From Nonomuraea antri (GTDB lineage Bacteria; Actinomycetota; Actinomycetes; Streptosporangiales; Streptosporangiaceae): a DNA stretch of 64,000 nt. Position 1 is the first letter of the stretch, and every line of letters starts with the position of its first letter. This document shows positions 3,983 through 34,263 of the stretch, piece by piece. The notes beneath the pieces are model-generated. The model saw nothing but the letters and a program-made list of their open reading frames with translations. It was not told the DNA's origin and did no database searches. The stretch covers positions 1 through 64,000 of the forward strand of contig NZ_JABCPZ010000004.1 in NCBI RefSeq assembly GCF_013283785.1. Reading direction: 5' to 3'. Position numbers and translations under genes: made by a program.

Positions 3983-4821
3983 ATGCGCCAACTCGCCTTG
4001 GAACTCAACGCCGACGGGTACCGGACGACGCGAGGAAGCCCGTACACCGGGGTCTCACTCGGGCGCATACTCGACAATGGCTTCGCCGCCGGCCTCATCC
4101 GCGAACGCTCAGAGATCCGGGATGCGGAGAGCACCGGAAAACGCATCAGCCAGTACGACATCTGGCGCGAGGGCGCTCACGAGGCGATCGTCTCGGCCGA
4201 ACTGTGGGAGGCGAACCGCGAGAAGCGACTCGCCAACGAACAGACCGCCCCACGACTCCGGACCGCCGTTCACTCCCTTTCGGGACTGGTGTTCTGCGCC
4301 CAATGCCTGAACCGCATGTCCGCCACCAAGGGCGGAAGCACGGGGGCTGCCGCCGAATGCAGGAGAGCGGCACGTGCCCGGGGGCGAGCATCGGCTACAA
4401 CCGCGTTCAGAACGCCATCCGTGCTTGGGTCCTGGAGAACGCACAGGGCGGAGAGAACATCGAAGCCGACGCGCGGCGCGTGCTCGCCGCGCAGCAGGCG
4501 ACGGCGGACGTAGAGGCGTGCCAGCGCGAGGTGAAGCGTCTGAAGACCAAGCGCAAGCGGCTGCTCGACTTGTACACAGACCCTGATGGGGGTGTGGGCG
4601 AGGAGGACGACAAGGAGCAGGAAGCCGAGATCGACGCGAATCTCACCGCGGCGGATGAGGCGCTGCGCGCCACCAAGGCTGCGGCTGCTGCGGTCGGGAC
4701 GGACTATGGCGCGATCTTCACCACCCTTCCCGATCTATGTGCTGCCGCAGTGGAGCGAGCACCGTGTCCGCCTGGCGTGATCAGGAGCATCGGTGACGGT
4801 CGGGGCCATGACGGTCAATGA
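3983..4821 (+). pseudogene. Large serine recombinase, N-truncated and frameshifted
   Basis: The frame opens right after a stop, with MRQLALELNADGYRTTRGSP and VSLGRILDNGFAAGLIRER, the recombinase domain of large serine integrases. The zinc-ribbon CAQCLNRMSATKGGSTG follows. A frameshift near 4345 moves the frame to GTCPGASIGYNRVQNAIRAW, then a coiled-coil (VEACQREVKRLKTKRKRLLD). The whole N-terminal resolvase domain with its catalytic serine is absent, so it cannot recombine DNA. It is probably the relic of a prophage or ICE that once integrated here. Confidence 0.8.
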
Positions 4822-6174: not shown

Positions 6175-6378
6175 GTGGAGATGTACCTCGTCAACGGCGT
6201 ACTGCAAGATGAGATCTCGAACGACATGGCCGCCGACCTCGACGTGATCGTCGAACAAGCCGACGGCGTCTTCGCCGACCTGGACCCGAACGACCGGGAC
6301 GAGGAGGAGGCGACGCCGTCGGCCCTCCGTCCAGATGCTCCGTCGAGGAATGACCCGGCGTTCTGGAAGAAGCCGTGA
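6175..6378 (+). CDS. Small acidic hypothetical protein
   Basis: 67 residues from GTG 6175: YLVNGVLQDEISNDMAADLD, VIVEQADGVFADLDPNDRDE, ending NDPAFWKKP. It is strongly acidic, with balanced amino-acid use unlike a shadow frame. It starts only 5 bp from the opposing ORF, so the two would share promoter space. Function unknown. Confidence 0.35.
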   Translation: MEMYLVNGVLQDEISNDMAADLDVIVEQADGVFADLDPNDRDEEEATPSALRPDAPSRNDPAFWKKP

Positions 6379-6471
6379 CGCAAAAATGTTGGGCGGACAA
6401 GTTCTGCTTCATCATATTGATTGACGTTTAATCAGGTGCCCATCAGCAACAGTTCGGCTACGCTGGCCACA

Positions 6472-6542
6472 GCTCAGGTGCGAAAGCCCCGGTTACTTCT
6501 CTGTCAAAGAAACCCATCCGGCGCTGTCCCCGACCTCTGAGC
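6472..6542 (+). ncRNA. Short Y-RNA-like RNA (no tRNA-like domain)
   Basis: Terminal stem GCTCAG (6472-6477) with CTGAGC (6537-6542). Inside it, AGCCCCGG pairs with CCGGCGCT around one internal mismatch. The strand CCGGTTACTTC repeats the CGGYTACTTC element found at the same place in the two longer RNAs downstream. The loop is short and lacks the T-arm/acceptor/D-arm insertion. It is the first of three tandem units upstream of the TROVE gene. I interpret it as a minimal Y RNA, because the paired scaffold resembles the Ro-binding helix of its neighbours. Confidence 0.55.
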
Positions 6543-6560
6543 CTCACAACCGAATATGCA

Positions 6561-6699
6561 CCTTCCCGGTGCGCAGGCAACGGTTACTTCCTCTCTCAAA
6601 GGAGAGACGCGGGTTCGAATCCCGCCGCTCGCTACGGCGAGCGTCGTCTAGAGGCCTAGGACACTTACGTCACCGTCGCCGACTTTGATCTCGGGAGGG
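6561..6699 (+). ncRNA. Y RNA (YrlA-like) with permuted tRNA-like domain, copy 1
   Basis: The outer stem is CCTTCCCG (6561-6568) with CGGGAGGG (6692-6699). The conserved inner helix is GGCAACGG with CCGTCGCC, leaving one A.C mismatch. A side hairpin CTCTC/GAGAG follows. The tRNA-like module comes in permuted order. First is the T-arm GCGGG-TTCGAAT-CCCGC (6609-6625). Next is a 7-bp acceptor-like stem CGCTCGC/GCGAGCG closed by a TACG tetraloop (6626-6643). Last is a D-arm-like segment TCGTCTAGAGGCCTAGGACA (6644-6663). Bacterial Y RNAs of the YrlA class are known tRNA mimics bound by Rsr, and the adjacent TROVE gene supports this. Confidence 0.85.
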
Positions 6700-6710
6700 A
6701 TACAACTTCA

Positions 6711-6852
6711 GAACGTGCCCGGTGCGCAGGCAACGGCTACTTCCGACTGATAATCGGCTGGTTGCAGGTTCGAGTCCTGCCGGGGACCTTGGTTCTCGTA
6801 GCTCAATTGGCAGAGCAGCTGCACCGTCGCCGACTCGATCTCGGGCGCGTTC
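6711..6852 (+). ncRNA. Y RNA (YrlA-like) with permuted tRNA-like domain, copy 2
   Basis: The outer stem GAACGTGCCCG (6711-6721) pairs with CGGGCGCGTTC (6842-6852), with one G.T pair. It covaries with the different stem of copy 1. The conserved helix GGCAACGG/CCGTCGCC and the element CGGCTACTTCC are shared. A side hairpin is CCGA/TCGG. The permuted tRNA module has T-arm GCAGG-TTCGAGT-CCTGC (6764-6780), a 7-bp acceptor-like stem CGGGGAC/GTTCTCG with a CTTG tetraloop (6781-6798), and a D-arm GCTC-AATTGGCA-GAGC (6801-6816). The geometry matches copy 1 with different bases. It ends 45 nt before the TROVE start codon. Confidence 0.88.
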
Positions 6853-6897
6853 TTGAGCGAAACCCTCTCGATCACCTACGAGGGGGTTCGTCGCGTC

Positions 6898-8502
6898 ATG
6901 AGCAAGTTCAACACCGCCCGCACCCGTACGGCCGCCACCAGCCCGGTCAAGACCGAGGCCACGCCGTTCGGCCGTACGTACGAGGGCGCCCCCGGCTACT
7001 CCCGCGACGCCAAGAGCGAGCTGTTCCTGCTGGCCGTGTCGAACATGGTCGGCGAGAACACCTTCTATGAGAAGGCCGGCGCCCGGGACGACCGATTCAG
7101 CCGGCTCGTCCACCAGGTCGCCGTCGAGGACGGGGAGTGGCTGGCCCGGTTCCTTCCATGGCTGCGCGGCGAGGCGAACATGCGCTCGGCGCCGATCGTG
7201 GCCGCGCTGGAGGCCGTCCGAGCGCGCCTGGCGGCCGGGGAGCATGGCCACAACCGGCAACTGCTGGCCAGCGTGCTGCAGCGGGCCGACGAGCCGGGCG
7301 AGGCGCTCGCCTACTGGACCTCCCGCTACGGCCGGGCGATCCCGAAGCCGATCAAGCGTGGCATCGCCGACGCCGTGGCCCGGCTGTACAGCGAGAAGTC
7401 GCTGCTCAAGTACGACAGCGACAGCCGCGGCTGGCGGTTCGGCGACGTGATCGACCTCGTGCACCCGAGCCCCGACCCGGGCAAGGCGTGGCAGGGCGAC
7501 CTGTTCCAGCATGCGCTGGACCGGCGCCACAACCGGGACAAGCCCATCCCGGTGAGCCTGCGCATGCTGGCCGCGCGCGCCGAGCTGATGGCGCTCTCTG
7601 TCGAGGCGCGCGCCGCGGTGCTCGCCGCCGAGCCCGAGCGGCTCGCCGCGGCCGGCATGACGTGGGAGTCGCTGGCCGGCTGGCTGCAGGGTCCGATGGG
7701 CAGGGGCGCATGGGAGTCGATCATCCCGACCATGGGCCTGATGTCGCTCACGCGGAACCTACGCAACTTCGACCAGGCCGACGTCAGTGACGTCGTGGCC
7801 GCCACCGTGGCAGCGCGGCTCGCCGACCCGGAGGAGGTGCGCCGGTCCCGGCAGTTCCCCTTCCGGTTCCTCGCCGCCTACCGGGCAGCGCCGTCGCTGC
7901 GCTGGGCCTACCCGCTCGAGCAGGCTCTCGGCCACTCGCTGGCCAACGTGCCCGCGCTGGCCGGGCGGACGCTGGTGCTTGTCGACCGGTCGCCGTCCAT
8001 GTGGTTCCAGACCATGTCCAAGCACTCCGACATGCCGTGGGCCGACGCCGCCGCGGTGTTCGGCGCGGCCATCGCCCTGCGCGCCGAGGCCGCGGACCTG
8101 GTCGAGTTCGGCATCGCGAACGGGCCCGTCCCGTTCAGCCGTGGCGAGTCGGTGCTGAAGGTCGTGGAGCGGTTCCGCCGGCTGGACGGGACGGACATCC
8201 CGTCGGCGGTGCGTGCGCACCTGCGCCCGCATCACACCCGGGTCGTGATCGTCACCGACGAGCAGACCCGGCCGGGCTGGCTGCCGTCCAACGGCTACAA
8301 CTACGGCGGCGGGCACGAGGCGCGCGTCGACGACCTCATCCCGGCCAGCGTGCCGCTGTACATGTGGAACTTCGGTGGCTACTCGCACGGCGCGGCACCG
8401 TCCGGGCAGAGCAACCGGCACACCTTCGGGGGTCTCTCCGACCAGGCGTTCCAGATGATCCCGCTGCTGGAGGCCAGCCGCAACGCGACCTGGCCGTTCT
8501 AG
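6898..8502 (+). CDS. rsr: TROVE-domain protein (Ro60/Rsr ortholog)
   Basis: 534 residues from ATG 6898 (MSKFNTARTRTAATSPVKTE). A TTG start 45 bases earlier would lie at the end of the Y RNA and is less likely. Residues ~20-350 form the TROVE HEAT-repeat ring (GYSRDAKSELFLLAVSNMVG, WLRGEANMRSAPIVAALEAV). Residues ~355-530 form a vWA-like domain with an intact MIDAS start at D363 (LVLVDRSPSMW). Bacterial Rsr binds Y RNA on the ring's outer surface and threads misfolded RNA ends through the hole. In some bacteria it tethers PNPase or acts with RtcB ligase. Here three Y-RNA-like genes lie immediately upstream on the same strand. No rtcB or pnp is in the window. Confidence 0.95.
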   Translation: MSKFNTARTRTAATSPVKTEATPFGRTYEGAPGYSRDAKSELFLLAVSNMVGENTFYEKAGARDDRFSRLVHQVAVEDGEWLARFLPWLRGEANMRSAPIVAALEAVRARLAAGEHGHNRQLLASVLQRADEPGEALAYWTSRYGRAIPKPIKRGIADAVARLYSEKSLLKYDSDSRGWRFGDVIDLVHPSPDPGKAWQGDLFQHALDRRHNRDKPIPVSLRMLAARAELMALSVEARAAVLAAEPERLAAAGMTWESLAGWLQGPMGRGAWESIIPTMGLMSLTRNLRNFDQADVSDVVAATVAARLADPEEVRRSRQFPFRFLAAYRAAPSLRWAYPLEQALGHSLANVPALAGRTLVLVDRSPSMWFQTMSKHSDMPWADAAAVFGAAIALRAEAADLVEFGIANGPVPFSRGESVLKVVERFRRLDGTDIPSAVRAHLRPHHTRVVIVTDEQTRPGWLPSNGYNYGGGHEARVDDLIPASVPLYMWNFGGYSHGAAPSGQSNRHTFGGLSDQAFQMIPLLEASRNATWPF

Positions 8503-10281: not shown

Positions 10282-12090
10282 ATGCTCATAGAGCCACGCG
10301 GAGGAAAGATCGTCGAACAGCACTTCGACATCGACAAATCCCGCTTTATCCCGCCTCAGCGCCGCCCGGAAGCCGGTGCTTTGCTGGGTGAGCTGAGAAA
10401 CCCTCGAAGAGCCTTCGACGCCGTCGTCGTCGGGGAGCCGCAGCGTGCCTTCTACGGCAACCAGTTCGGCAACACCTTCGACATCTTCAACCACTTCGGA
10501 GTGCCGCTGTGGGTACCCGAGGTGGGCGGCCCGATCGACCCGACCAACGAAGCCCACGAACTCATCATGATGATGTTCGGCGGCGTCAGTAAGGGCGAGC
10601 GGAACCGCATCAAGGTCAGAGTCCGGACCGCCATGAGCGCCCTGGCGGAGATCGAGGGACGCTTCCTCGGCGGACGTCCGCCCTACGGCTATCTCCTGAC
10701 CGATCTCGGGCCGCACCCGAACCCGGCCAAGGCCGCCGACGGCAAACGGCTTCACGGCTTGGACCTCGATCCCTACGCCGCCCTGGTCGTCCAGCGGATC
10801 TTCGCTGAGTTCCTGGAAGGCAGCGGTCTCTTCGCGATCGCCGAAGGACTGACGCGAGATGGGATCCCCTGTCCCTCGGCCCATGACCCGAAGCGGAACC
10901 GGCACCGGTCAGGAATCGCCTGGTCCAAGGGGGCCGTCCGGACGATTCTCACCAATCCTCGCTACACCGGCCGCCAGGTCTGGAACCGGCAGCGCAAGGA
11001 CGAAGTGCTGTTGGATGTCGATGACGTGACGCTCGGGCACACCACCAAGCAGCGCTGGAACGACTCCGACAAGTGGATCTTCTCGAAGAAGGCCGTGCAT
11101 CCCCAGCTCGTGGACGACGACACCTTTCGCAACGTGCAAGACATTCTCGCTGCTCGCGGCAGAGGACCCTGCGAGCACAAACCGCATCGCACCCGCCATC
11201 CCTATGCCTTCAAGGGCGCGATCCGCTGCGGCCTGTGCCTTCGCAAGATGCAGAGTCAGTGGATCAACGAGGCCGCCTACTACCGGTGCGCCTTCGCCCG
11301 TGAGTACGCGCTGGGCAACAAGATCGAGCACCCGCTCAACGTCTACCTCCGTGAGGACGCCATCCTGCCCCGCGTCGACCGCTGGCTTTCCAAGGTGTTC
11401 GCGCCACACCGCCTCACCCAGACGATCGACGACATGTTCGCCGACCAGCCGGATCGCAACCACGACGCGATGACCGAAGCCACCCGCAAGAGGATCGCGG
11501 ACGTGGAGACCAAGTTGGCCCGTTACCGCGCCGCCATCGAAGCCGGCGGCGACCCGGCCGAGATCGGCCGATGGGTCAACGAGGCCAAGGCTGAACGACT
11601 CAAGGCAGAAGCCGAACTGCGTCAGAGCCGGAAGGGTGCCCCGATGTCCAGAACCGAGATCGCCGAGCTGGTGACGGAGATCGGTGACATGGCCAGAGCC
11701 GTCGCCGATGCTCCTGTGAAGCGCAAGCACGAGACCTATCAGTGGATGGGCCTGCGCCTGACCTATCACCCCGGACAAGCAAAAGTGAGGGCCGAGATCC
11801 ATCTCAGCCCTCACGTAGTGAAAAGGTACGTGTCCGAGGACTTAGCGCCACCGGACGCACATGGCCCAGAGGTATCCCCATCCCCAAACATCACATTCCT
11901 GTCGCCTGACATGCGAAACCCGCGCCCGGTTGAGCGGTCAGCTGGAGCGGTCCCGTCGGTGGATCGTTCGCGCCAGGCCAACGTTTACCGAGGCGCAGCC
12001 GCTTCACCATCCCACGGGCGCCGACTCTATATATCGATCTTGCAGATCGCCTTTAGGCATCAATGCCTGGAGCGACCACAGGATCCGTAG
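10282..12090 (+). pseudogene. Large serine recombinase lacking its catalytic N-terminus
   Basis: 602 residues of continuous ORF. It starts inside the resolvase domain (LIEPRGGKIVEQHFDIDKSR, PQRAFYGNQFGNTFDIFNHF, GGVSKGERNRIKVRVRTAMS). It continues through the recombinase domain (GRFLGGRPPYGYLLTDLGPH), a zinc ribbon (CGLCLRKMQSQW) and a coiled-coil. Intact relatives have ~35 further residues upstream with the catalytic serine in a Y.R.S motif. Here that part is replaced by the lanthipeptide relic, so strand exchange should be impossible. The ORF is otherwise undamaged, which implies recent truncation. The last ~60 residues after HLSPHVVKRYV read through poorly conserved sequence. Confidence 0.85.
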
Positions 12091-24418: not shown

Positions 24419-26977
24419 TCACTGCCCCAGGGCAGCCTCCACAGATGGACCGGCCCAGCCCGTTTCGGTCTTCCAGATGATCGACACTTCGAAGAGCGTC
24501 TTGATGATCTCGACAGCCCACAGATCCTGCGGCTCCTTCGGCAGGACGAGGAACAGCCGGTCGATCTCCTTGTACTTGCCGCTCGCCCATTCGGCTTCCA
24601 GAAGCCGAGGGGCCATGGCGCGGAGTTCTGCGTAGGTGTCGACGCTCTGTGCTGAGATCACGTAGAACCCGAGCCCGCGCTCGTCCTCACAGATGATGTC
24701 GGCGTACTCGGTATCCAGCAGGGGCTCGCGTTCGTTGCCGTACAACTCGGCTGCGAGCATGTGCTTGAGACGGGCGTGTGCTGGTTGCTTCCGGCTGGCA
24801 GCCGCCTGCTCCTTGAGGAAGGCTCGAAACTCATCCCCGTCAGCGAACCGCTCATTCCGGGACGAAGGGACAGTGTCAGTCTTCTTGATCTCGGTCACAG
24901 GCACCTTGACAGGCCCGCCTAGTTCGGCAGGCAGAGGGGATGAATGGAGCACCGTCAGGGACTGCGTGCACCGGGTCAGAGCGACGTAAAGCTGCCGAAG
25001 CCCCGTCGAACTCTGTTCGGCGAACAGATGCGGTTCTACCACCACGACGTGGTCGAACTCCAGACCCTTCGCCATGTGCGCGGGCATGACGGTAATTCTC
25101 TGTCCCATTCCCGGCAACGCCGACTCCTGGGAAGAGGCGATCCGCTGGGCGAGTTCGTCATGGAACTCGTCCTGCGCCGGAGTTAGGACCGCGACGGAGC
25201 GTGCCTGGTTGCCGTCCTTGATGGCCAGCCGCTGGGCCCTGCTGACTGTCTCGGTGAGTATGCGCTGCCGGGAGACCGGGACGATCTCCAAAGTGCCCTG
25301 TGACGATGGTCGCACCGAGGTCGGTATCGCCGTGGAGGGCGAGATCTTCGTTCCCAGCATCGCGGCGAAGCTCATGACGTCGGCCGGCACTCGGTAACCG
25401 ATGCCGAGTTCGGCGATGTGCCAGCCTTCGGTGCCGGCCAGGATGTCGGCCAGGCGCTCCCAAACGTCGTACTGGCGAATTCCCGTGCTCTGCGCCAAGT
25501 CTCCGAGTACCGTCATCGAGCCGGACGGGCACCAGCGGGCCAGCGACTTGGCCTGCATGGGCGTCAGGTCCTGGGCCTCGTCGATGACCAGGTGGTGGTA
25601 GCGCCGTTCGTCCTCCCCGGTCAGGAGCCATCGGAGCTCCCCCAGGCAGACGAGGTCCTCGGTCGACCACGGTTCGTCCGCGACTCGTTTCGCCTGGAGG
25701 CGGACAAGCGCGGCCTGCTCGTCGAGGGTGAGCACGCCGAAGGCCGCGGCCGCGAGGCCGTCCTTGTCGGCGAGTAGTTGCCGATAGATCTGCTCGGCGC
25801 TGGACGACGGCCAGATGCGATTGATGAGCGTAGAAACGGCCGCGACCTTCTCCAGTTGGGTGCGGAGCCGGTCGTCGGTCTTCTTGACCCGAGTCGCCTC
25901 GGCGTACTGGGTCAGCAGCCAGTCGATGACTGTATCGATGAAGCGGCGGCGGCGCACCTGGTAAGAACCCCTTGCCGCACGAGCCGCCGAGGCCAGCCGG
26001 ACGAGCTCGGCCCTGTCGATCTCCAGCCGCGCACCGCGGAAGTTGAAGCCCTCCTCGGTGGCGAGATCTTCTCGAATGAGGTTCTCGACCGCGTTGTACA
26101 GCACCCTGGCCATCCGGTCATCCGACTTGACCAGGCGGGCGGCGACAGGATCGGTTCCCCGGACGTCGCCTGGCCAGAGCTCGGTGATGTCCACGGTCGC
26201 CACGCCGCGGCTGCCCATCCGGGGCAGGACGTCACGAACGTACTGAAGGAACGCCTTGTGGGGGCCGACGACGAGCACTTGGTCAGGGGTGAAGTGCTCG
26301 TTGTCCAACAACCAGGTGACGCGGTGGAGGCCGACCGCGGTCTTGCCGGTGCCCGGACCACCCTGGATGACGAGCACACCTTTTCGTTCGTCGGCGACCA
26401 GCCGCAGCTGATGGCGCTGGATCGTTTCGACGATGTCACGCATGACGCCGTCGCGAGCAAGATCCAGGTCGGCGAGGAGGAACAGGTCGGGCTCGTCGTC
26501 GATGACCGGAGCCGGGACGGTCTCCCCCTTGGCGTTGATCACCTGGATCTCGGTATCGCTGTAGTCGAGGACCTTGGGGCCGTCGCAGCGAAGCTGACGT
26601 TGCCGGCGTACCTCCGCGGGGTCTTCGGGCGTGGCCAGACGCCAGGCGGTCGCCGCCTTGGAGGTCCACTTCACCAGTGCCAGGTCGCCCTGGCGGTCTC
26701 GCACGGTGGCCCGGCCGATGTACCAGGTGAGCTTGTCGTCGGGGTCATCGAGGAGGTCGATCCGGGCGATCACGAGGGGATGGTGGCCGAGGTCCTCGCG
26801 GCGTCCGTATTCCTTCGGCAGGTCCGGATGAGAGGACAGCCCAGCGTCCGGGCAATCGCCCAGGCTGCCCATGCGGAAGTTGTCGATGGCCTTCTGGTCC
26901 TGGTCGATGCAGTCGTAGATGTGATCCACGGCCAGCTGTTCCTCAGCGATCACCGCGTTCCGATCGACCGTGCTCAT
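24419..26977 (-). CDS. helD: HelD-like superfamily 1 helicase/ATPase
   Basis: 852 residues from ATG 26977 (MSTVDRNAVIAEEQLAVDHI). The N-terminal coiled arm and the block GDLALVKWTSKAATAWRLAT match HelD. Walker A is GGPGTGKTAVGLHR near residue 205. The Walker B-type motif is LVIDEAQDLTPMQAKSLARW, and later SF1 motifs are GIGYRVPADVMSFA, MAKGLEFDHVVVVEP and LYVALTRC. HelD binds RNA polymerase, opens its clefts and recycles stalled complexes, and some actinobacterial versions give rifampicin tolerance. About 100 extra C-terminal residues (from LKHMLAAELYGNEREPL) exceed usual HelD. The gene is divergent from the type I restriction block. Confidence 0.85.
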   Translation of the reverse strand: MSTVDRNAVIAEEQLAVDHIYDCIDQDQKAIDNFRMGSLGDCPDAGLSSHPDLPKEYGRREDLGHHPLVIARIDLLDDPDDKLTWYIGRATVRDRQGDLALVKWTSKAATAWRLATPEDPAEVRRQRQLRCDGPKVLDYSDTEIQVINAKGETVPAPVIDDEPDLFLLADLDLARDGVMRDIVETIQRHQLRLVADERKGVLVIQGGPGTGKTAVGLHRVTWLLDNEHFTPDQVLVVGPHKAFLQYVRDVLPRMGSRGVATVDITELWPGDVRGTDPVAARLVKSDDRMARVLYNAVENLIREDLATEEGFNFRGARLEIDRAELVRLASAARAARGSYQVRRRRFIDTVIDWLLTQYAEATRVKKTDDRLRTQLEKVAAVSTLINRIWPSSSAEQIYRQLLADKDGLAAAAFGVLTLDEQAALVRLQAKRVADEPWSTEDLVCLGELRWLLTGEDERRYHHLVIDEAQDLTPMQAKSLARWCPSGSMTVLGDLAQSTGIRQYDVWERLADILAGTEGWHIAELGIGYRVPADVMSFAAMLGTKISPSTAIPTSVRPSSQGTLEIVPVSRQRILTETVSRAQRLAIKDGNQARSVAVLTPAQDEFHDELAQRIASSQESALPGMGQRITVMPAHMAKGLEFDHVVVVEPHLFAEQSSTGLRQLYVALTRCTQSLTVLHSSPLPAELGGPVKVPVTEIKKTDTVPSSRNERFADGDEFRAFLKEQAAASRKQPAHARLKHMLAAELYGNEREPLLDTEYADIICEDERGLGFYVISAQSVDTYAELRAMAPRLLEAEWASGKYKEIDRLFLVLPKEPQDLWAVEIIKTLFEVSIIWKTETGWAGPSVEAALGQ

Positions 26978-27162
26978 TTGACCTCCGGGAACCAATCGAT
27001 GCCGGCCATCGGGAGCGATCCAACGTCGGCATGTCGAATCGATCTATCACTCTTCGTGGCCCAATGTCACTACGGGGCGGGAGTCGGTGGTGGTGGCCTT
27101 GCGGCGGCTCTCCGGATGACTCCACGTCCTGTGGCTTCGGTACACAGGCATAATGTCTGGTG

Positions 27163-27192
27163 TTGACGGAAGTAGCAAGAGATATCTAGAGT
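27163..27192 (+). promoter_or_regulatory. Promoter candidate for hsdM
   Basis: TTGACG (27163-27168), 18-bp spacer, TAGAGT (27187-27192): a good vegetative-type promoter for an actinobacterium. It lies 115 bp upstream of the hsdM GTG start, within the 329-bp gap that separates it from the divergent helD gene. The rest of that gap shows no gene. Confidence 0.5.
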
Positions 27193-27306
27193 GACGTCCA
27201 CAGGTATTCACGTCTGCAGCACGAAGGACCTGCGCAGACCCATGGTCGCTGAGAAACTGACCTCGGTACCCCTGACGCAGACTGACCGATCTAGAGAGGC
27301 CACCAC

Positions 27307-29751
27307 GTGGCGAAGCTAACGTTGCCGCAGCTTGAGCGGCACCTGTTCGGCGCGGCCGACATCCTCCGCGGCAAGATGGATGCCTCAGAGTTCAAGGAGT
27401 ACATCTTCGGGATGCTCTTCCTGAAGCGGGCCTCCGACCAGTTCGATGTGGTTCGCCGCGAGGTTGTAGACAAGCTGGTGGCCGGGGGCAAGAGCCACGA
27501 GGAAGCCGAGCAGACAGCCGAGGCGCGCGGCTTCTACCGCGGCGACAAGTTCTACGTCCCAGCGGAGGCCCGCTGGAGCCATATCAGGAACGAGTCGCGT
27601 AAGAAGAACGTCGGCGACATGCTCAACAAGGCGCTCGGTGCCCTGGAGGAAGAGAACGTCGCCGCCCTCGAAGGCGTCCTGGAACACATCGACTTCACCC
27701 GCAAGGTCGGCCAGTCCACCATCCCCGACAAACGGCTGCAGCAGCTCGTCGACCACTTCTCCCGCGTTCGGCTCCGCAACGAGGACTTCGAGTTCCCCGA
27801 TCTGCTCGGCGCGGCCTACGAATACCTGATCGCCCAGTTCGCCGACTCCGCCGGCAAGAAGGGCGGCGAGTTCTACACGCCGCGTGGCGTCGTCCGCATG
27901 ATGGTCCGCCTGGTCAAGCCCAGGCCGGGCATGGCCGTCTACGACCCGTGCGCCGGCTCGGGCGGCATGCTCATCCACGCCAAGGAGTACATCGACGAGC
28001 ACGGCCTCGACTCGCGCGACCTGACGTTGGCCGGGCAGGAGTACAACGGCGGCACCTGGGCGGTGTCGAAGATGAACATGATCCTCCACGGCGTCCTCAA
28101 CGCCCAGCTGGAGAACGACGACACCCTCGCCGAGCCCCGGCACCTCAAGGGCGGCGAGCTGATGCGCTTTGACCGGGTGCTCACCAATCCGCCCTTCTCC
28201 CTCAACTACTCCTCGGCCGACATGAAGCAAAGGGAGCGCTTCAAGTACGGGTATGCGCCGGAGACCGGGAAGAAGGCGGACCTCATGTTCGCCCAGCACG
28301 TCCTCGCAGTGCTGACTCCCGACGGCATCGGGGCCAACGTCATGCCCCACGGTGTACTGTTCCGCAGCGGCAAGGAGAAGGACATCCGCGAGGGCATCAT
28401 CAAAGACGACCGCCTGGAGGCGGTCATCGGCCTGGCCCCCAACCTCTTCTACGGCACCGGCATCCCCGCCTGCGTCCTCGTCCTGCGCGGCACCGACCCG
28501 CGCCCGGCCGAACGGCGCGGCAAGGTGCTCTTCATCAACGCCGACCGTGAGTTCACCGCCGGCCGCGCCCAGAACTACCTCGACCCACAGCACGCCGAGA
28601 AGATCGTCGCGGCGTACGAGGCGTATGAGGACATCCCCGGGTTCGCGCGGGTCGTCGACATCGAAGAGCTTGACGAGAACGACTTCAACCTCAACATCCG
28701 CCGCTACGTCGACAACACGCCGCCGCCCGAACCGCAGGATGTCCGTGCCCACCTCCACGGCGGCGTACCCAAGTCCGAGGTCGAGGCCAAGGCGGGACTG
28801 TTCCGGGCGTTCGGCATTGACCCGGTGATGCTGTTCGCCGAGCGCGACGCCGACTACTTCGACTTCCTGCCCGAGGGCTGGCAGGCCACCGCTGCTCGCC
28901 TCCCCGCTCTTGCCGAACCTGCCGTGGCCCGTCTGCGCGAGGCTTTCGACGAGTGGTGGAGCCGCCATAGCAAGCGCCTGGTCGAGCTGCCGAGCACGCG
29001 CAAGGTGATGGAGGTACGAGCCGAGCTGCTCGACTCCTTCGTGACCGAGCTGCTGCCCGTGGACATGCTCGACCGGTTCGAACTGGCCGGCGTCGTGGCG
29101 GCCTGGTGGGGTGAGGCCCAGTACGACATCAAGACACTCGGCCTCAACGGGTTCGAGGGCGTGGTGGAAGGCTGGCTCACCACCATCGAATCGGCCTTCG
29201 CACTGGACGAGGAGGACGTCGAATACTGGGACAAGCAGAAGGTCGCCGCCGAGAAACGAAAGGCTCGTGACCACCGCATCGTTCCCGCACTGATCCCCGA
29301 CTATCTGGCCGAACTCGAAGAGGCCGAGACTACATACGCCGAGCTGAACGCCCAACTTAAGGCCGCCACAACCAAGCCCTCGGAGGACGAGGAGGAAGCT
29401 GACGAGCCCGCCGAGGACCAACTCTCCGAGGTCGAGCTCAAGGCACTCAAGTCCCGTACGGCCGCCGCTAGGAAGAAGGTCACCGCGCTGGAGAACCACT
29501 TCCTGCCCCGCCTCCGCATGGCCGCCGGCGCCCTGGACGACTCCGGCCGCCGCACCCTCGTCCTCGACGTGCTCCGGCTACAGGTTTCGTCCCGCTTGGA
29601 TTCGGGTACGGCCGCCGCCCGCCGATTGTTCGAGAACGCATTCCGTACCTGGTCCGACAAATACGCGGTAACGCTACGCGCCCTGGAGACCCAGCGCGAG
29701 AGTGCAACCGCCAGGCTCGACGCCTATCTGAAGGAGTTGGGCTATGTATAA
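27307..29751 (+). CDS. hsdM: Type I restriction-modification DNA methyltransferase subunit
   Basis: 814 residues from GTG 27307. It has an N-terminal HsdM helical domain ([40 protein letters not shown]) and an N6-adenine methylase core with SAM motif DPCAGSGGM (D213) and catalytic NPPF in [14 protein letters not shown]. It is longer than classical HsdM (~520) because of a ~300-residue C-terminal extension with Glu/Asp-rich coiled-coil ([20 protein letters not shown]) that probably docks HsdS. It is the first gene of the block and overlaps hsdS by 8 bp. Confidence 0.96.
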
Positions 29752-31021
29752 AACTTCCGACATTTCCGTCGGCTGGAAGCGCTTCGCCCTTCGCGATCTA
29801 GTTACACATGCAGTTTCTGGCCCCAGCCCTACATGCGAAGAGCGAAATATCTATGGTGATCGTGAGTGGGGACTCCTCAAGACTACCGCCATCACATGGA
29901 AGGGTTGGAATATAGGCGCGCATAAAGTATTGCCTGCCGAATACTGGGGGCATCACACACTGGCTGTATCGGTCAACGATATAGTGATTACGAAGGCAGG
30001 GCCTCGTCATCGTGTCGGAGTGGTTGCGCATGTAGATCAAGTCATTCCGAGAGTTATAGTTTCTGGGAAGATGGTTCTCCTGCGTCCGAATGTCGACCTA
30101 GTGGAGCCGCGAATTCTCGCCGGACTCCTGTCGCAAGCCGCCCCGCAACGGTTTCTCGACGAACGAACTACCGGTATGGCGGAATCGCAGGTTAACTTCT
30201 CTAATGGCGCGCTTCTTAAAACGCCCCTGCTTGTTCCCCCTATCGACGAACAGCGGCGGATCGCGGATATTCTCGACACCCTCGATGGACAGATTCGCTT
30301 CACGCTTGAGGGCGCCAAAAAGGTCATCGCTCTTCGCTCAGCCATCTCTGACGCTCTGATCCCTGTTCATAGCGATCCTGTGGATCTCGGCGAAGGATGG
30401 TCATGTGTTCGACTCGCCGACGTGGTTCGCAGCGTTGAATATGGAATCTCCACTTCGCTCGATGAGGATGCTTCGGGCACACCCATTCTGAGGATGAATA
30501 ATCTCGCCGACGGCAAGATCAAGCTCGGTGAGGTGAAGTATTCGTCCATTGGTGCGCCCGCGCACCTCTTTCTCCGTGATCGCGACGTGCTTTTCAATCG
30601 CACAAACAGTATCGATCATGTAGGTCGTACATCAATCTGGCGGAGTGAGATTGAGCGGCCCACGTCATTCGCCTCCTACTTGGTCCGTCTTAATCCAGAC
30701 CCCGGTCGCCTCGTTCCAGAATATCTGGTGCGCTGGCTCAACTGTCCTGCTATTCAGCAGCGTATTAGACGCTATGCCACTCCTGGCGTGCATCAAGTGA
30801 ACATTAATCCCACTAACCTTCGAAAGGCGTTCATCGAGCTTCCGGTAGATCTAGAGCGTCAGCGAAAGATCGATGTCGTCCTAGCCGAATGCGAACGAAC
30901 CATCGAGCGGTGGCGAGTAGAGGAATCTCGCCTTCACATGTTCAAGCAGGGTCTCATGGAAGACCTGCTGACTGGCCGAGTGCAGGTTTCGGAAGCCGAA
31001 GCCGTGCTGGAAGACCTCTGA
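29744..31021 (+). CDS. hsdS: Type I restriction-modification specificity subunit
   Basis: 425 residues with two target-recognition domains, each ending in a conserved helix region ([40 protein letters not shown]). Typical phrases include [14 protein letters not shown] and [16 protein letters not shown]. It defines the bipartite DNA sequence methylated or cut by the complex. The GC content is clearly lower and the codon use less biased than in hsdM and hsdR, especially in the TRDs. This fits the known rapid exchange of hsdS recognition domains. It ends with the usual [12 protein letters not shown] tail. Confidence 0.95.
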
Positions 31022-31107
31022 CTCTATGGGCGGCAGCGAGCCGTCCTGGTGTTTGCATGATTGCCGGTGATGACGTTGTTAGCGGAGTTAGCGAGGGGAG
31101 TCGGACG

Positions 31108-34100
31108 GTGACCGACTACGAATACTTGCTCGTCGAGAAGCCGCTCATAGAACAGCTCAAGGACATGGGCTGGGAACATCGGGCGGGAGCCGAGCATGGG
31201 GCGGTGGTTCCGCTCTACCCGAGGATGTCGGACCGAGGCAGCTTCGACGAAACAATTCTCGAAGACAAGCTGCGTGAGGCCATCGAGCGCATCAACGGTA
31301 CCTGGTTGGACGAGCGCAAGGTAAGCCAGGCAGTCAACGCCATCACTCGGATCCCCACGACTAACTTGCTGGAAGCCAACAAGCAGGTCACCGACCTGCT
31401 GATCAACGGAATCCCGATTGAAGACCCTGCGACCGGCAAATCCCGGACCGTGCATTACATCGACTGGAAGAACGGTCCGGGCAATAACGAGTTCACCGCG
31501 ATCAACCAGTTCCGGGTGGACATCCCTGGCACTGGCGGCCACAAGCAGATCGTCCCGGACGTCGTCCTCTTCGTGAACGGCATCCCCCTGGTCGTCATCG
31601 AGTGCAAGAAGACCACCGAGAGTAATCTGGACAAGGCCGTGACCCAGCTTCGTCGCTACCGCGACAGCCGTACCGGACTGTTCCGGCCGGTGCAGCTGAC
31701 GGTCGCGACGAGCGGTGAGGACGCCAGGCTCGGCACGTTAACCGCCAAACTCGAACACTATGTGCCGTGGCGTGATCCGTATCCGATGACGAAGAAGCAG
31801 CTCGCCGACCGGCTGGGCAAGGCGGAAGAGCATCTAAGCAAGCAGGAAATCCTGGTCGCCGGCGTGCTGGAGCCGGACAACCTGCTGAACATCGTCCACA
31901 ACTTCGTCACCTTCATGGCCACTGACGAGGGCGTCACCATCAAGGTCGCCCCCCGGTATCAGCAGTTCCGGGCGGTCGAGCGTGCGGTCGAGCGACTGTT
32001 GACCGGTGAGCCGTGGCATCGCGGTGGCATCATCTGGCACACCCAGGGGTCGGGCAAGAGCCTCACCATGACCTTCCTGGTGCGACGGCTGCGGTCGCTG
32101 GACGGGCTGGCGCACTACAAGGTCGTGGTGGTTACCGACCGTACCCAGTTGCAGGACCAGCTCACCGAGACGATGGCGTTGAGCAACGAGAAGGTCGACG
32201 TCGCCAAGAACACGGCACGGGCCAGGACCCTGCTCGGTCGCAAGGGCCCCGGGCTGGTCTTCGTCATGATCCAGAAGAACCAGAGCGGTCAGCCCAAGGA
32301 CCGCATGGAGCTGGGCGAGATCAACACCGACGAGTCGATCGTCGTACTGATCGACGAGGTGCACCGCTCGCACACGGCCGCACTGGGCGCCAACCTCCGC
32401 CAGGCCATGCCTAACGCCGCCAGGATTGGCTTCACGGGCACCCCGATCATGAAGAAGCGAGGACAGCGGAAGACCAGCGTGGAGCTTTTCGGACCGTTCA
32501 TCGACACCTACCGCCTCCGAGAAGCCGAAGAGGACGGGGTGATCGTGCCGATCCTCTACGAGGGCATCAAAGTCAAGGGCGCGCTGCAGAACGGTCAGGA
32601 CATGGACGAGCTCTTCGAGGAGGAGTTCGAGGAGCTGACCGACGAGGAACGCCTGCAACTGCAGGCCCGCTGGGCCAACAAAGGCAACGTGTCGGCGGCG
32701 CGAAAGCTGGTCGACGTTAAGGCCAAGCACATGCTCCGGCACTACGTGGACAAGGTGCTGCCCGAGGGCTTCAAGGCGCAGGTGGTCGCCTATGACCGGG
32801 AGACGACCGTACGGTATCGGGAAGCGCTCATGGAGGCCCGCGACGAGCTGGTCCGCGACATCGAGAAGCTTCCGCCGCACCTGCTCGCGCGGAGCATCGA
32901 GGAGCTGAAGCCGCGCCAGGCCCAGCTCGTGAAGGCCCACAAGCAGCTGGACCTGTTGAAGCGGATGGACTTCGTGCCGGTGATCTCCAAGGGAGACACC
33001 GAACACGAGGACCGCTACGCCGAGTGGACCGACGAGGCCAAGCAGAAGACCCGGATCGAGGGCTTCACCCGGCCGTTCGGGGAGAACGACATCGCCTTCG
33101 TCATCGTGAAGTCGATGCTGCTGACCGGGTTCGACGCGCCGATCGAGCAGGTGATGTACCTCGACCGGAAGCTGGAGATGCACGACCTGCTCCAGGCCGT
33201 GGCGCGAGTGAACCGTACGGCCGGGAACAAGCCTTTCGGGTACGTCGTGGACTACCGCGGCGTGGCCCAGAACCTGGTAGAGGCGCTGCGTATCTACGCC
33301 GACGAGGAATTCGAGACCGACGAGAGCCTCGACGTCTCAGGCGCCCTGCGCGACCTGAAGACGGAGATCGGGAAACTGGAGCCGCGCCGGCAGCGGCTCC
33401 GGATGATGTTCCGCGACTACACCGACGTCGAAGGCTGCGTGCAGGAGCTGGCGGATCCGCAACTGCGTGACCGGTTCGGCGTCGAGCTGGCCCGCTTCTC
33501 CCGGACGATCAACACAGTGCTGCCCGACCCGGCAGCCACGCCGTACCTGGCCGACGCCAAGCACTTTGCGGTCATCAGGCTCACCGCGAACCGGCGCTAC
33601 CGCGTCGACGGCGGCGAGTTCGACCCCGGCGCGTATGGACAGAAGATCAAGCTGCTCATCGACGAGCACATCACCTCGCTCGGCATCGAGCAGCAGCTTC
33701 CACCCATCGCGCTGACCGCGACCAACTTCGCTGAAAGGGTTGAGGCGATGACCGGCGGCTCACGGGCAAAGGCGTCGGAGATGGAGAATGCCATCCGGCA
33801 TCACATCACCGTCAACGCTGGCCAGGACCCGGCCCGCTACCAGCTGCTGAGCGAGCGACTGGAACAGATCCTCACCGAGCTCAAGGACGACTGGGATGCC
33901 CAGCTGCTGGCGTTCAAGGACCTGATGTCCGATGTGGTGGAGGACCGGCGGGACAACCCCCATGAGTTCAGCCCGGCCGAATTCGCTCTCTACGGCGTCC
34001 TGCTTCAGGAGCTGGCCACCTCCGACGCGGACCTGGAAGACCAGCGGTTCGTCCGGGCCACCCGCGAGATCATCCGGCTGGCCGGCCGGACCATCCACCG

Positions 34101-34263
34101 GCACGGCTTCTGGGACAAGCGTCCCGACGTCGCCGACTTCCGCGACGAGATCTTCGAGATTCTCGTGACCGCTGACCTCGGCGATGTCCATCAGCTGGAG
34201 AAGGTGGCGGACAAGGCCCGGGACGCCGTCAAGAACAACCACGCGACGATCCCCAAAGCCTGA
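31108..34263 (+). CDS. hsdR: Type I restriction endonuclease/translocase subunit
   Basis: 1051 residues from GTG 31108, chosen for the GAGGGGAG site 7 bp upstream. An in-frame ATG at 31057 is possible. The nuclease PD-ExK lies at D151...E165-C-K167 (IVPDVVLFVNG, VVIECKK). The SF2 motor has Walker A HTQGSGKSLTM (~311-321), DEVH (416-419), GFTGTPIMKK and AVARVNRTAGNKPFGYVVDY. It cuts unmodified DNA after translocation. The 86-bp gap to hsdS is short, so it is probably co-transcribed. Confidence 0.95.
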   Translation: MTDYEYLLVEKPLIEQLKDMGWEHRAGAEHGAVVPLYPRMSDRGSFDETILEDKLREAIERINGTWLDERKVSQAVNAITRIPTTNLLEANKQVTDLLINGIPIEDPATGKSRTVHYIDWKNGPGNNEFTAINQFRVDIPGTGGHKQIVPDVVLFVNGIPLVVIECKKTTESNLDKAVTQLRRYRDSRTGLFRPVQLTVATSGEDARLGTLTAKLEHYVPWRDPYPMTKKQLADRLGKAEEHLSKQEILVAGVLEPDNLLNIVHNFVTFMATDEGVTIKVAPRYQQFRAVERAVERLLTGEPWHRGGIIWHTQGSGKSLTMTFLVRRLRSLDGLAHYKVVVVTDRTQLQDQLTETMALSNEKVDVAKNTARARTLLGRKGPGLVFVMIQKNQSGQPKDRMELGEINTDESIVVLIDEVHRSHTAALGANLRQAMPNAARIGFTGTPIMKKRGQRKTSVELFGPFIDTYRLREAEEDGVIVPILYEGIKVKGALQNGQDMDELFEEEFEELTDEERLQLQARWANKGNVSAARKLVDVKAKHMLRHYVDKVLPEGFKAQVVAYDRETTVRYREALMEARDELVRDIEKLPPHLLARSIEELKPRQAQLVKAHKQLDLLKRMDFVPVISKGDTEHEDRYAEWTDEAKQKTRIEGFTRPFGENDIAFVIVKSMLLTGFDAPIEQVMYLDRKLEMHDLLQAVARVNRTAGNKPFGYVVDYRGVAQNLVEALRIYADEEFETDESLDVSGALRDLKTEIGKLEPRRQRLRMMFRDYTDVEGCVQELADPQLRDRFGVELARFSRTINTVLPDPAATPYLADAKHFAVIRLTANRRYRVDGGEFDPGAYGQKIKLLIDEHITSLGIEQQLPPIALTATNFAERVEAMTGGSRAKASEMENAIRHHITVNAGQDPARYQLLSERLEQILTELKDDWDAQLLAFKDLMSDVVEDRRDNPHEFSPAEFALYGVLLQELATSDADLEDQRFVRATREIIRLAGRTIHRHGFWDKRPDVADFRDEIFEILVTADLGDVHQLEKVADKARDAVKNNHATIPKA

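Follow-up and report, generated by a model that had tools for sequence, protein, structure and literature searches.

Y RNA-like units with permuted tRNA modules and a hypervariable anticodon beside the Rsr gene of Nonomuraea antri

Known Rsr-associated RNAs and the layout of the locus

The role of bacterial Ro60 and its Y RNAs is a long-standing question. In the YrlA family (Rfam RF02553) the RNA gene lies beside Rsr, and the RNA combines a long stem with the order T arm, closed acceptor hairpin, D arm; in our reading of the consensus structure line, the T-D stem continues into the outer stem, and the anticodon loop is replaced. The Salmonella rsr-yrlBA-rtcBA RNA repair operon places Rsr and a tRNA-like RNA in a tRNA-cleavage setting; passages from two papers describe D, T and acceptor arms only in this RNA and report that it is not cut (PMC8394870, PMC7790460). 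In jumbo phages a ROT/TROVE protein occurs with RNA ligases, and this pairing of Ro and RNA repair genes has been suggested as a response to tRNA cleavage; passages from that paper mention a tRNA-like partner, with no anticodon display or variability described in them (PMC7824862).

The locus analysed here lies in a window of 64,000 nt (the whole stretch of DNA under study). An earlier note, made from the letters of the DNA, had described three tandem Y-RNA-like genes of 71, 139 and 142 nt, two of them with permuted tRNA modules, followed by a Ro60/Rsr gene. Sequence, covariation and comparison with relatives support this description, and the three units were found where the note had placed them. 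The features, all assigned from sequence with further support as named, are as follows.

6472..6542, + strand: Y RNA unit 1, 71 nt long, without T or D arm; has an outer stem, the conserved GGTGCG...GGTTACTT core and an anticodon-like stem-loop; the same short class occurs in relatives
6497..6511, + strand: unit 1 anticodon-like hairpin, TTCT-CTGTCAA-AGAA; anticodon GTC at 6503-6505; loop as in own tRNA-Asp(GUC)
6561..6699, + strand: Y RNA unit 2 (139 nt), Glu-type; model R1 (see below) 113 bits over 6565-6695; folding z-score -4.0
6588..6604, + strand: unit 2 anticodon arm, TTCCT-CTCTCAA-AGGAG; anticodon CTC at 6595-6597; loop as in own tRNA-Glu(CUC); Glu-type relatives pair likewise
6609..6625, + strand: unit 2 T arm; covaries in relatives
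6626..6643, + strand: unit 2 acceptor-stem hairpin, 7 bp, closed by TACG
6644..6664, + strand: unit 2 D arm region; 90% identity to the D arm of own tRNA-Glu(UUC)
6711..6852, + strand: Y RNA unit 3 (142 nt), generic elongator type; R1 122.9 bits over 6718-6845; Rfam YrlA 42.6 bits, below the gathering score of 69
6743..6757, + strand: unit 3 anticodon arm, CCGA-CTGATAA-TCGG; anticodon GAT at 6749-6751; loop as in own tRNA-Ile(GAU)
6764..6780, + strand: unit 3 T arm; covaries in relatives
6781..6798, + strand: unit 3 acceptor-stem hairpin, 7 bp, closed by CTTG
6801..6816, + strand: unit 3 D arm; ~90% identity to the D arms of the host tRNAs for Lys, Thr and His
6898..8502, + strand: Rsr (Ro60 orthologue), 534 aa, ATG at 6898; Pfam TROVE 47.6 bits, cut-off 23

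The gene after the RNA units was rightly read as Rsr: its TROVE domain scores above the curated cut-off, it is the sole TROVE match found in its own genome, and it resembles the solved TROVE proteins 9l5y and 9kop. Its ATG lies 45 bases past unit 3, which places the units among bacterial Y RNAs in the broad sense of RNAs adjoining an Rsr gene. Unlike the Salmonella operon, the locus has no recognised RNA-repair gene; RtcB matches of the same genome lie on other contigs. Scanning of positions 6200-6950 detected no promoter, and the single terminator-like match, inside unit 3, was attributed to chance (0.6 expected). The neighbourhood contains two serine recombinases and type I restriction genes; a defence interpretation of it was set aside, no gene there being tied to the Y RNAs.

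The anatomy of the units is strongly supported. Units 2 and 3 have the 27-nt 5' element (6565-6591 and 6718-6744, one mismatch) and the common 3' element described earlier, their two outer stems differ in sequence yet pair, and in both the T arm is followed by a 7-bp acceptor hairpin and then the D arm; in unit 2 this D arm is indeed Glu-like, host tRNA-Glu being the closest. The earlier note erred in describing the tRNA module as cut at the anticodon. The break lies between the D arm and the anticodon arm and, therefore, the anticodon arm remains in the module, forming a hairpin that lies 5' of the T arm and has an anticodon-type loop of 7 nt. Unit 1 does lack T and D arms, as claimed, but is not devoid of tRNA-like parts, since it can form an anticodon-like hairpin with the loop CUGUCAA. 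Thus all three units can form an anticodon-type hairpin, with loops identical at 7/7 positions to those of host tRNA-Asp(GUC), Glu(CUC) and Ile(GAU), while the stems differ from the stems of real tRNAs. The body of unit 3 does not match its anticodon isotype: a generic D arm and a T arm identical to that of one ARAGORN-called tRNA-Pro accompany an Ile loop.

Folding of single sequences (z-scores of -2.1, -4.0 and -1.6 for units 1, 2 and 3) gives weaker support than the family model and covariation described below. The anticodon arm of unit 3 has a pair probability of 0.55-0.59; in unit 2 a rival hairpin is 4.3 kcal/mol better than the anticodon arm for this single sequence, and the hairpin of unit 1 reaches a pair probability of only ~0.1, forcing it costing 1.5 kcal/mol relative to the preferred hairpin.

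Family model and database classes

The units belong to a large Y RNA family of actinobacteria and actinophages. A scan of the whole window at Rfam gathering scores found nothing; we therefore built our own model, R1, from 50 relatives, with unit 3 in the seed and unit 2 outside it. Searching the 64 kb with R1 recovered units 3 and 2 and nothing else at E up to 0.1; unit 1, which is of another class, was not found by R1 in the window. In the seed alignment 19 of the 32 pairs change on both sides, and the covariation score was reached by none of 500 shuffles. The earlier note had staked its reading on conserved pairing in homologous loci, and such pairing is present: helices covary in the 50 relatives. 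Alignment A1 consists of 50 generic units hand-picked from the 73 (of 109) with the hairpin and U33; because of this pre-selection its anticodon-helix count is no independent test, and the count over 98 non-redundant units given below serves instead. Two of the R1 matches at ~69 bits (L233 and L234) were dropped as tandem tRNA-Asn genes. Many weaker matches are confined to model positions 24-103, which make up the tRNA-like part; since these matches are probably tRNAs, the tally of 196 of 296 genomes was not used as a prevalence.

With the YrlA model, unit 3 scores 42.6 bits and unit 2 19.8 bits, both below the gathering score, and unit 1 has no match. Units 2 and 3, not unit 1, have the permuted order of T arm, closed acceptor hairpin and D arm; in contrast to YrlA, the outer (presumed Ro-binding) stem does not replace the anticodon loop but is inserted between the D and anticodon arms, a separate anticodon hairpin being kept. 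Some sister units elsewhere have, in our reading, the classic YrlA topology. The tRNA model (RF00005, threshold 29) gives 27.9 bits for unit 3 and 22.3 for unit 2; the arm order is permuted rather than canonical, with the acceptor closed by a tetraloop. ARAGORN nevertheless calls unit 3 tRNA-Ile, and among strict units it reports tRNA genes for 39 of 103 from bacteria and 16 of 53 from viruses; such calls on strict Y RNA units are a warning for annotation. Another tRNA mimic, tmRNA, has an acceptor and T arm and no anticodon arm, whereas the window units can form one. It is charged and used on the ribosome; closed Y RNAs should not be.

The anticodon in bacterial and viral relatives

Of the 123 loci examined (some are the same record twice), 116 have units close to Rsr. 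The tandem set of mixed types had been called unusual, which the relatives do not support: two to five units occur at 76 of the 96 loci with units, as counted by a simple pattern with each unit taken once and a few spurious matches. Of the 222 pattern units, 80 belong to classes in which no anticodon arm was recognised. In classes with room for it, the 7-base hairpin is present in 68 of 98 non-redundant units (22% in shuffles), the other 30 clusters having no clean 7-nt loop; the short class, to which unit 1 belongs, has a 7-nt loop in only 11 of 28.

Anticodon bases 34-36 are hypervariable inside a constant tRNA-like loop, in which bases 32, 33, 37 and 38 are held. Among the 68 hairpin units, U33 is found in 60 and A38 in 53, while anticodon entropy is near-random (1.86-1.97 bits). 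An exact copy of a real anticodon loop of the own genome is carried by 58 of 103 strict units (30.2 +/- 3.6 expected with permuted anticodon bases). In the same set G37 is present in 22 of the 24 units with G36 and in 12 of the 79 others, A34 occurs in eight, and stop anticodons in none. Thirteen disjoint pairs at least 92% identical differ at 16 of 39 anticodon sites, 2 of 135 anticodon-stem sites, 5 of 52 flanking loop bases and 11 of 51 acceptor-loop sites; the anticodon turns over faster than the acceptor loop only at p = 0.06 in the closest pairs, and at 0.014 in the next bin, where some sequences are re-used. The 64-pair table includes three misparsed units (L227, L231 and L232) that are outside the strict set. 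Near-identical units in one genus, presumed Streptomyces, carry CUU, CAU, GUU or GAU, and wherever a bacterial locus has two or more strict units (13 loci) their anticodons differ.

The viral set (70 of 80 viral-contig loci, 10 being omitted as duplicates or truncated; 150 of 153 matches aligned) repeats the bacterial pattern, with U33 in 53 of 59 units and a G36-G37 association at p = 4.6e-6. One pair, 99% identical, carries GUU versus GCU; 30 of 89 units of the right spacing have no 7-nt hairpin. Several phage copies are located among tRNA genes, and in phages Kela and JustBecause an RNA ligase gene is directly beside Ro.

Candidate functions of the displayed loop

The explanation we consider best, and hold with middling confidence, is that the RNAs act as decoys or baits for anticodon-cleaving enzymes. 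The three Y RNAs, presumably transcribed, would have a putative Rsr-binding stem in common and each present tRNA parts. Unit 1 would present a lone anticodon-like stem-loop, and units 2 and 3 an entire tRNA in circular permutation, which runs from the anticodon arm through the variable loop, T arm, 3' acceptor strand, tetraloop and 5' acceptor strand to the D arm; the putative Rsr-binding stem sits between the D arm and the anticodon arm. As substrate decoys, or as baits whose capture is sensed, they would bind enzymes cutting tRNA anticodon loops by offering a genuine-looking loop without a free acceptor end; the Rsr ring may hold the captured enzyme or the cut RNA, leading to inhibition or decay, perhaps with a protective effect. 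A genome may carry a small set of different anticodons, re-specified fast. The suggestion in the earlier note that Rsr serves several clients or modification enzymes was close in spirit, while the present evidence is narrower and concerns the anticodon loop, which the note did not see. Passages of Hughes 2020 propose YrlA as a possible competitive inhibitor of an anticodon nuclease; the same passages state that the Salmonella RNA is not cut by that nuclease, which counts against the decoy reading (PMC7790460). Passages of two further papers gave no decisive point (PMC9569102, PMC11277228).

The units might instead be ordinary YrlA-type regulators of an Rsr-PNPase machine, with the anticodon arm a structural remnant of a captured tRNA whose three bases drift freely. 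Such a role has precedent in passages of PMC8394870, where a Deinococcus Y RNA tethers Rsr to PNPase and YrlA has D, T and acceptor arms, and the closest pairs separate anticodon from acceptor loop at no better than the p = 0.06 given above. Yet drift does not predict real anticodons (58 exact copies against 30 expected, zero stop anticodons, few A34), nor a G36-G37 rule present in both bacterial and viral sets, nor loop bases 32, 33, 37 and 38 held while 34-36 change; we regard it as unlikely.

Mimicry aimed at tRNA-modification enzymes or aminoacyl-tRNA synthetases, tethered or titrated through Rsr, appears quite doubtful. The m1G37 enzyme needs G36-G37 and the t6A37 enzyme needs U36-A37, and the combinations counted here match these needs. 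YrlA is, moreover, a substrate of DusA and TruB according to passages of PMC8394870. However, these enzymes are conserved, and many of them recognise several tRNAs, leaving rapid anticodon switching between near-identical RNAs unexplained, and the body need not match the anticodon isotype, as unit 3 exemplifies.

Refreshment of the loops by gene conversion from real tRNA genes, with no selection for diversity, would account for the many exact loop copies and fits phage copies sited among tRNA genes. We judge it improbable: stems in the window differ from real tRNA stems, and in pairs of 95-99% identity the difference lies in one or two anticodon bases, the rest of the arm being (nearly) unchanged, whereas conversion tracts are usually longer than that. 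That the units are hairpins arising by chance, or tRNA pseudogenes close to Rsr, is a reading for which the ARAGORN tRNA-Ile call could be cited; it is already disfavoured and highly improbable given the permuted arm order, the covarying helices and the 116 of 123 loci near Rsr.

For the decoy or bait reading, a hypervariable anticodon in a constant loop points to the part of the RNA likely to meet a partner and suggests an enzyme that reads the anticodon loop; a swap of the three bases should then change which nuclease is resisted. Actinophages would gain a candidate counter-defence besides RNA ligase and tRNA genes. We tentatively propose, as a possibility somewhat short of an expectation, a Ro60-based anticodon-bait system in actinobacteria and their phages, in which a few permuted tRNAs with real anticodons would be carried on Rsr and conflict with nucleases that cut anticodons, from phages, hosts and competitors, would diversify the anticodons on display, much like a recognition repertoire written in three bases.

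The RNA array beside the Rsr gene

As the earlier note had read it, three tandem Y-RNA-like units stand next to a Ro60/Rsr gene.

6472-6542: Y RNA unit 1, first of the tandem array (71 nt)
6561-6699: Y RNA unit 2, second of the tandem array (139 nt)
6711-6852: Y RNA unit 3, third of the tandem array (142 nt)
ATG at 6898: Rsr/Ro60 gene (TROVE protein, 534 aa), directly after the RNA array

No TROVE match besides this Rsr turned up in the host genome. The core pattern GGTGCG-N4..8-GGNTACTT occurs five times in the 11.7-Mb genome (three are units 1-3), and its reversed control twice. The units had no match in Rfam at its own thresholds; a permissive search gave unit 3 42.6 bits and unit 2 19.8 bits against YrlA (RF02553; threshold 69), and 27.9 and 22.3 bits, respectively, against the tRNA family (threshold 29). 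Being below threshold and of other topology, the units are not members of YrlA; they share the same scaffold principle. ARAGORN called 6715-6788 as tRNA-Ile(gat). Serine recombinase matches (PF07508) flank the locus at 3983-4510 and 10282-12090, which suggests a mobile region. Type I restriction-modification genes lie in 24419-34263 (HsdM 27307-29751, HsdR 30889-34263), with a UvrD-like helicase that has a weak Schlafen-group-3 match.

Counting the own genome, 105 of the 298 genomes searched in this family and 11 of 396 from a phylum-wide sample had Rsr matches; Rsr was also located at 33 named genome loci (Streptosporangium, Nonomuraea, Planotetraspora, Actinomadura, Nocardiopsis, Nocardia, Rhodococcus, Amycolatopsis, Saccharothrix, Streptomyces, Micromonospora and Dactylosporangium). 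Pattern search of 123 relative loci (L002-L124, some records included twice) yielded 233 distinct units, including a few spurious ones. Thirteen loci had no unit by pattern; covariance model R1, built from alignment A1 of generic units, recovered units in six of them, and L062, L071 and L120-L124 had none by either search. A tandem set of mixed types had been called unusual; 76 of the 96 loci with assigned distinct TACTT-core units have two to five.

The units have their ends in common, and the displayed part varies. The display classes, in our own naming, are generic permuted tRNA; Glu-type; Gln-like; naked anticodon-like stem-loop; T arm first without anticodon arm; and further types, of which some bear a variable-arm-like hairpin. 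Some units have, on our reading, the classic YrlA topology, where the outer stem replaces the anticodon loop; L101 and the second unit at each of L039 and L040 are examples. The scaffold has uses beyond anticodon display, since many sister units present different parts of a tRNA. Units of L130, L220 and L249, with a Leu-type D arm and long variable region, are apparently permuted class II tRNA mimics. Units of ~95 nt in L005, L013, L017, L018 and L021 combine a variable-arm-like hairpin with a T arm; no D arm was seen in them.

The anticodon-type hairpin

The tRNA module is not, as had been proposed, cut at the anticodon: in units 2 and 3, the stretch from the conserved TACTT to the T arm contains a hairpin with a 7-nt loop, at the anticodon arm position of a tRNA cut between 26 and 27. 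Unit 1, described as lacking the tRNA module, indeed has no T or D arm, but the same hairpin can form in it. In a host set of 65 tRNA matches (64 distinct sequences by ARAGORN, some doubtful; register of the Glu CUC and Lys TTT loops set by hand), the loops CTGTCAA (unit 1), CTCTCAA (unit 2) and CTGATAA (unit 3) equal those of tRNA-Asp(GUC), tRNA-Glu(CUC) and tRNA-Ile(GAU) at 7/7 bases, each on a stem different from that of the matching tRNA. Anticodon and T/D arms can disagree; the D arm of unit 3 is generic and its T arm identical to that of one ARAGORN-called tRNA-Pro. By the energy model, the hairpin is part of the optimum in unit 3 (pair probability near 0.6) and lies 1.5 kcal/mol above it in unit 1 and 4.3 kcal/mol above it in unit 2.

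Conserved pairing at homologous loci, on which the earlier note had staked its reading, was found. In A1 (50 generic units, MAFFT, structure written by hand), 96.6% of 1598 cells pair and 19 of 32 pairs have both-sided change; none of 500 shuffles reached any of five measures, and pairing fell to 36-53% once partner columns were offset by 1 to 3. One anticodon-helix pair is GC in 25 units, CG in 22, AU in 1 and UA in 1, and the outermost is unpaired in 8/50, counts biased by the choice of units with a good hairpin. More weight therefore goes to an unbiased count, with 142 generic, Glu, Gln-like and short units grouped into 98 clusters at 80% identity. The 7-nt-loop hairpin is in place in 68 clusters (22% expected from shuffles): generic 47/60, Glu 8/8, Gln-like 2/2 and short 11/28; the 30 without a clean 7-nt loop are mostly short units. 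U33 is present in 60 and A38 in 53 of the 68, whose anticodon positions have 1.86, 1.97 and 1.94 bits of 2. Classes without room for the hairpin hold 80 of 222 TACTT-core units; in class 'other' (n=52), 10 have such a hairpin, five of these with U33.

Loop identity and hypervariability

A strict set took in the model hits with U33, normal spacing and a hairpin score of 8 or more, which were 103 of the 203 distinct ones. With p-values that treat kin units as independent, G37 was found in 22 of 24 units with G36 vs 12 of 79 others (p = 7e-12), stop anticodons in 0/103 (p = 0.007 vs 3/64) and A34 in 8/103 (p = 6e-6 vs 1/4); the G36-G37 table in the clustered set was 15/3/9/41 (p = 1.4e-6). Exact copies of an own-genome anticodon loop numbered 58/103 vs 30.2 +/- 3.6 with bases 34-36 permuted (50/106 vs 23.1 +/- 3.4 in an earlier unfiltered set), and 34 distinct anticodons occur. 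ARAGORN, an independent program, called 39 of the 103 as tRNA and agreed on the anticodon in all 39; among viral units it called 16/53 and agreed in 15.

Wherever a bacterial locus has two or more strict units (13 loci), their anticodons differ. In 13 disjoint pairs whose identity elsewhere is 92% or more, differences were found at 16/39 sites of bases 34-36, 2/135 of the anticodon stem, 5/52 of bases 32, 33, 37 and 38, 0/124 of the D stem region, 2/91 of the T loop, 11/77 of the D loop and 11/51 of the acceptor loop; in 20 pairs of the 0.88-0.92 bin, the anticodon differed at 31/60, the stem at 12/195 and the acceptor loop at 24/79. Bases 34-36 clearly exceed the flanking loop bases (8e-4 and 9e-8, respectively). 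Against the acceptor loop, which ranks second in speed, their excess has p = 0.06 and 0.014, so diversifying selection on the anticodon bases is suggested by these comparisons and not proved. For example, L127 and L129 (genus g70, presumed Streptomyces) are 98% identical elsewhere with CUU vs CAU, L225 and L226 (genus g355) 97% with GCG vs CGG, and Glu-type units of Planotetraspora and relatives (L018, L021, L017, L028) have CUC, UUC and GCA. Five of the 13 closest pairs show no anticodon difference, their loops being identical or changed only at other positions.

By tblastn, Ro relatives were detected in 48 phage records, actinophages being 22 of the 30 listed. The surroundings of Ro were taken from 16 records, some near-identical, and from 80 loci of three viral-contig scans, some possibly prophage or host DNA; model searches covered all 16 records and 70 of the 80 loci, 13 records in one search and the other three together with the loci in another. 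Of 142 distinct viral core units, 89 carry a correctly spaced T arm, and the 7-nt hairpin is present in 59 of the 89 (U33 53/59, A38 51/59; G36-G37 table 8/1/4/40, p = 4.6e-6), with 31/59 loops copying a window-genome loop vs 18.2 expected; short viral units have the hairpin in 10/15 and U33 in 6. Ten disjoint viral pairs (at least 80%) differ at 10/30 anticodon sites vs 10/139 in the rest of the arm. L281 and L325 are 99% identical with GUU vs GCU, and Gordonia phages Neville and Rabbitrun, whose frames are 95% identical, carry GCU and UUU.

Several phage Ro genes sit amid many tRNA genes. Some tRNA-Arg, tRNA-Ser and tRNA-Pro genes annotated in actinophages share sequence with model hits immediately before Ro (L257:2269-2343, L258:2274-2347, L263:2204-2275, L261:2245-2335). 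Phage tRNA annotations lying over a model hit include tRNA-Ser(gct) of Alone3, tRNA-Arg(cct) of GiJojo and tRNA-Arg(tct) of VanLee. An annotated RNA ligase gene ends ~20 bases before Ro in Streptomyces phage Kela (L262:1729-2481, PF09414 as tested there) and in JustBecause (L264, layout by annotation), and upstream of the ligase gene lies a 44.5-bit model hit. The Rabbitrun Y RNA (L266:2191-2379) has a large insert in the acceptor hairpin.

Possible origin and role

Mimicry of D, T and acceptor arms by bacterial Y RNAs (excerpts of PMC8394870) and Rsr-bound Y RNAs of M. smegmatis (excerpts of PMC4726728) are already known; in the literature searched, with the main papers outside it, neither an anticodon arm nor varying anticodons were described for such RNAs. 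L233:62-189 and L234:54-181 (~69 bits with the model) were rejected as Y RNAs, being tandem tRNA-Asn genes. The middle of such a repeat has exactly the permuted arm order, which makes tandem tRNA repeats a plausible origin of permuted Y RNAs.

The presumed Rsr-binding part of the scaffold stays constant, and the anticodon loops on display look real and are re-specified quickly. The arm could be a remnant with passively drifting bases, which we consider unlikely; we are more doubtful still that the RNAs mimic tRNA for modification enzymes or synthetases, and refreshing of the loops by gene conversion seems improbable. Over these we favour, with evenly balanced confidence, a role of the Y RNAs as decoy or bait, because quick re-specification is what an antagonistic partner specific for anticodons would lead one to expect, bacteria widely use anticodon cleavage against phages, which answer with RNA repair (excerpts of PMC7824862), and YrlA of Salmonella, itself not cut, was proposed before as competitive inhibitor of an anticodon nuclease (excerpts of PMC7790460). 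Judged by its anatomy, a closed acceptor hairpin plus an inserted stem, the RNA should neither be charged nor decode. An antagonist reading its anticodon may be an anticodon nuclease.
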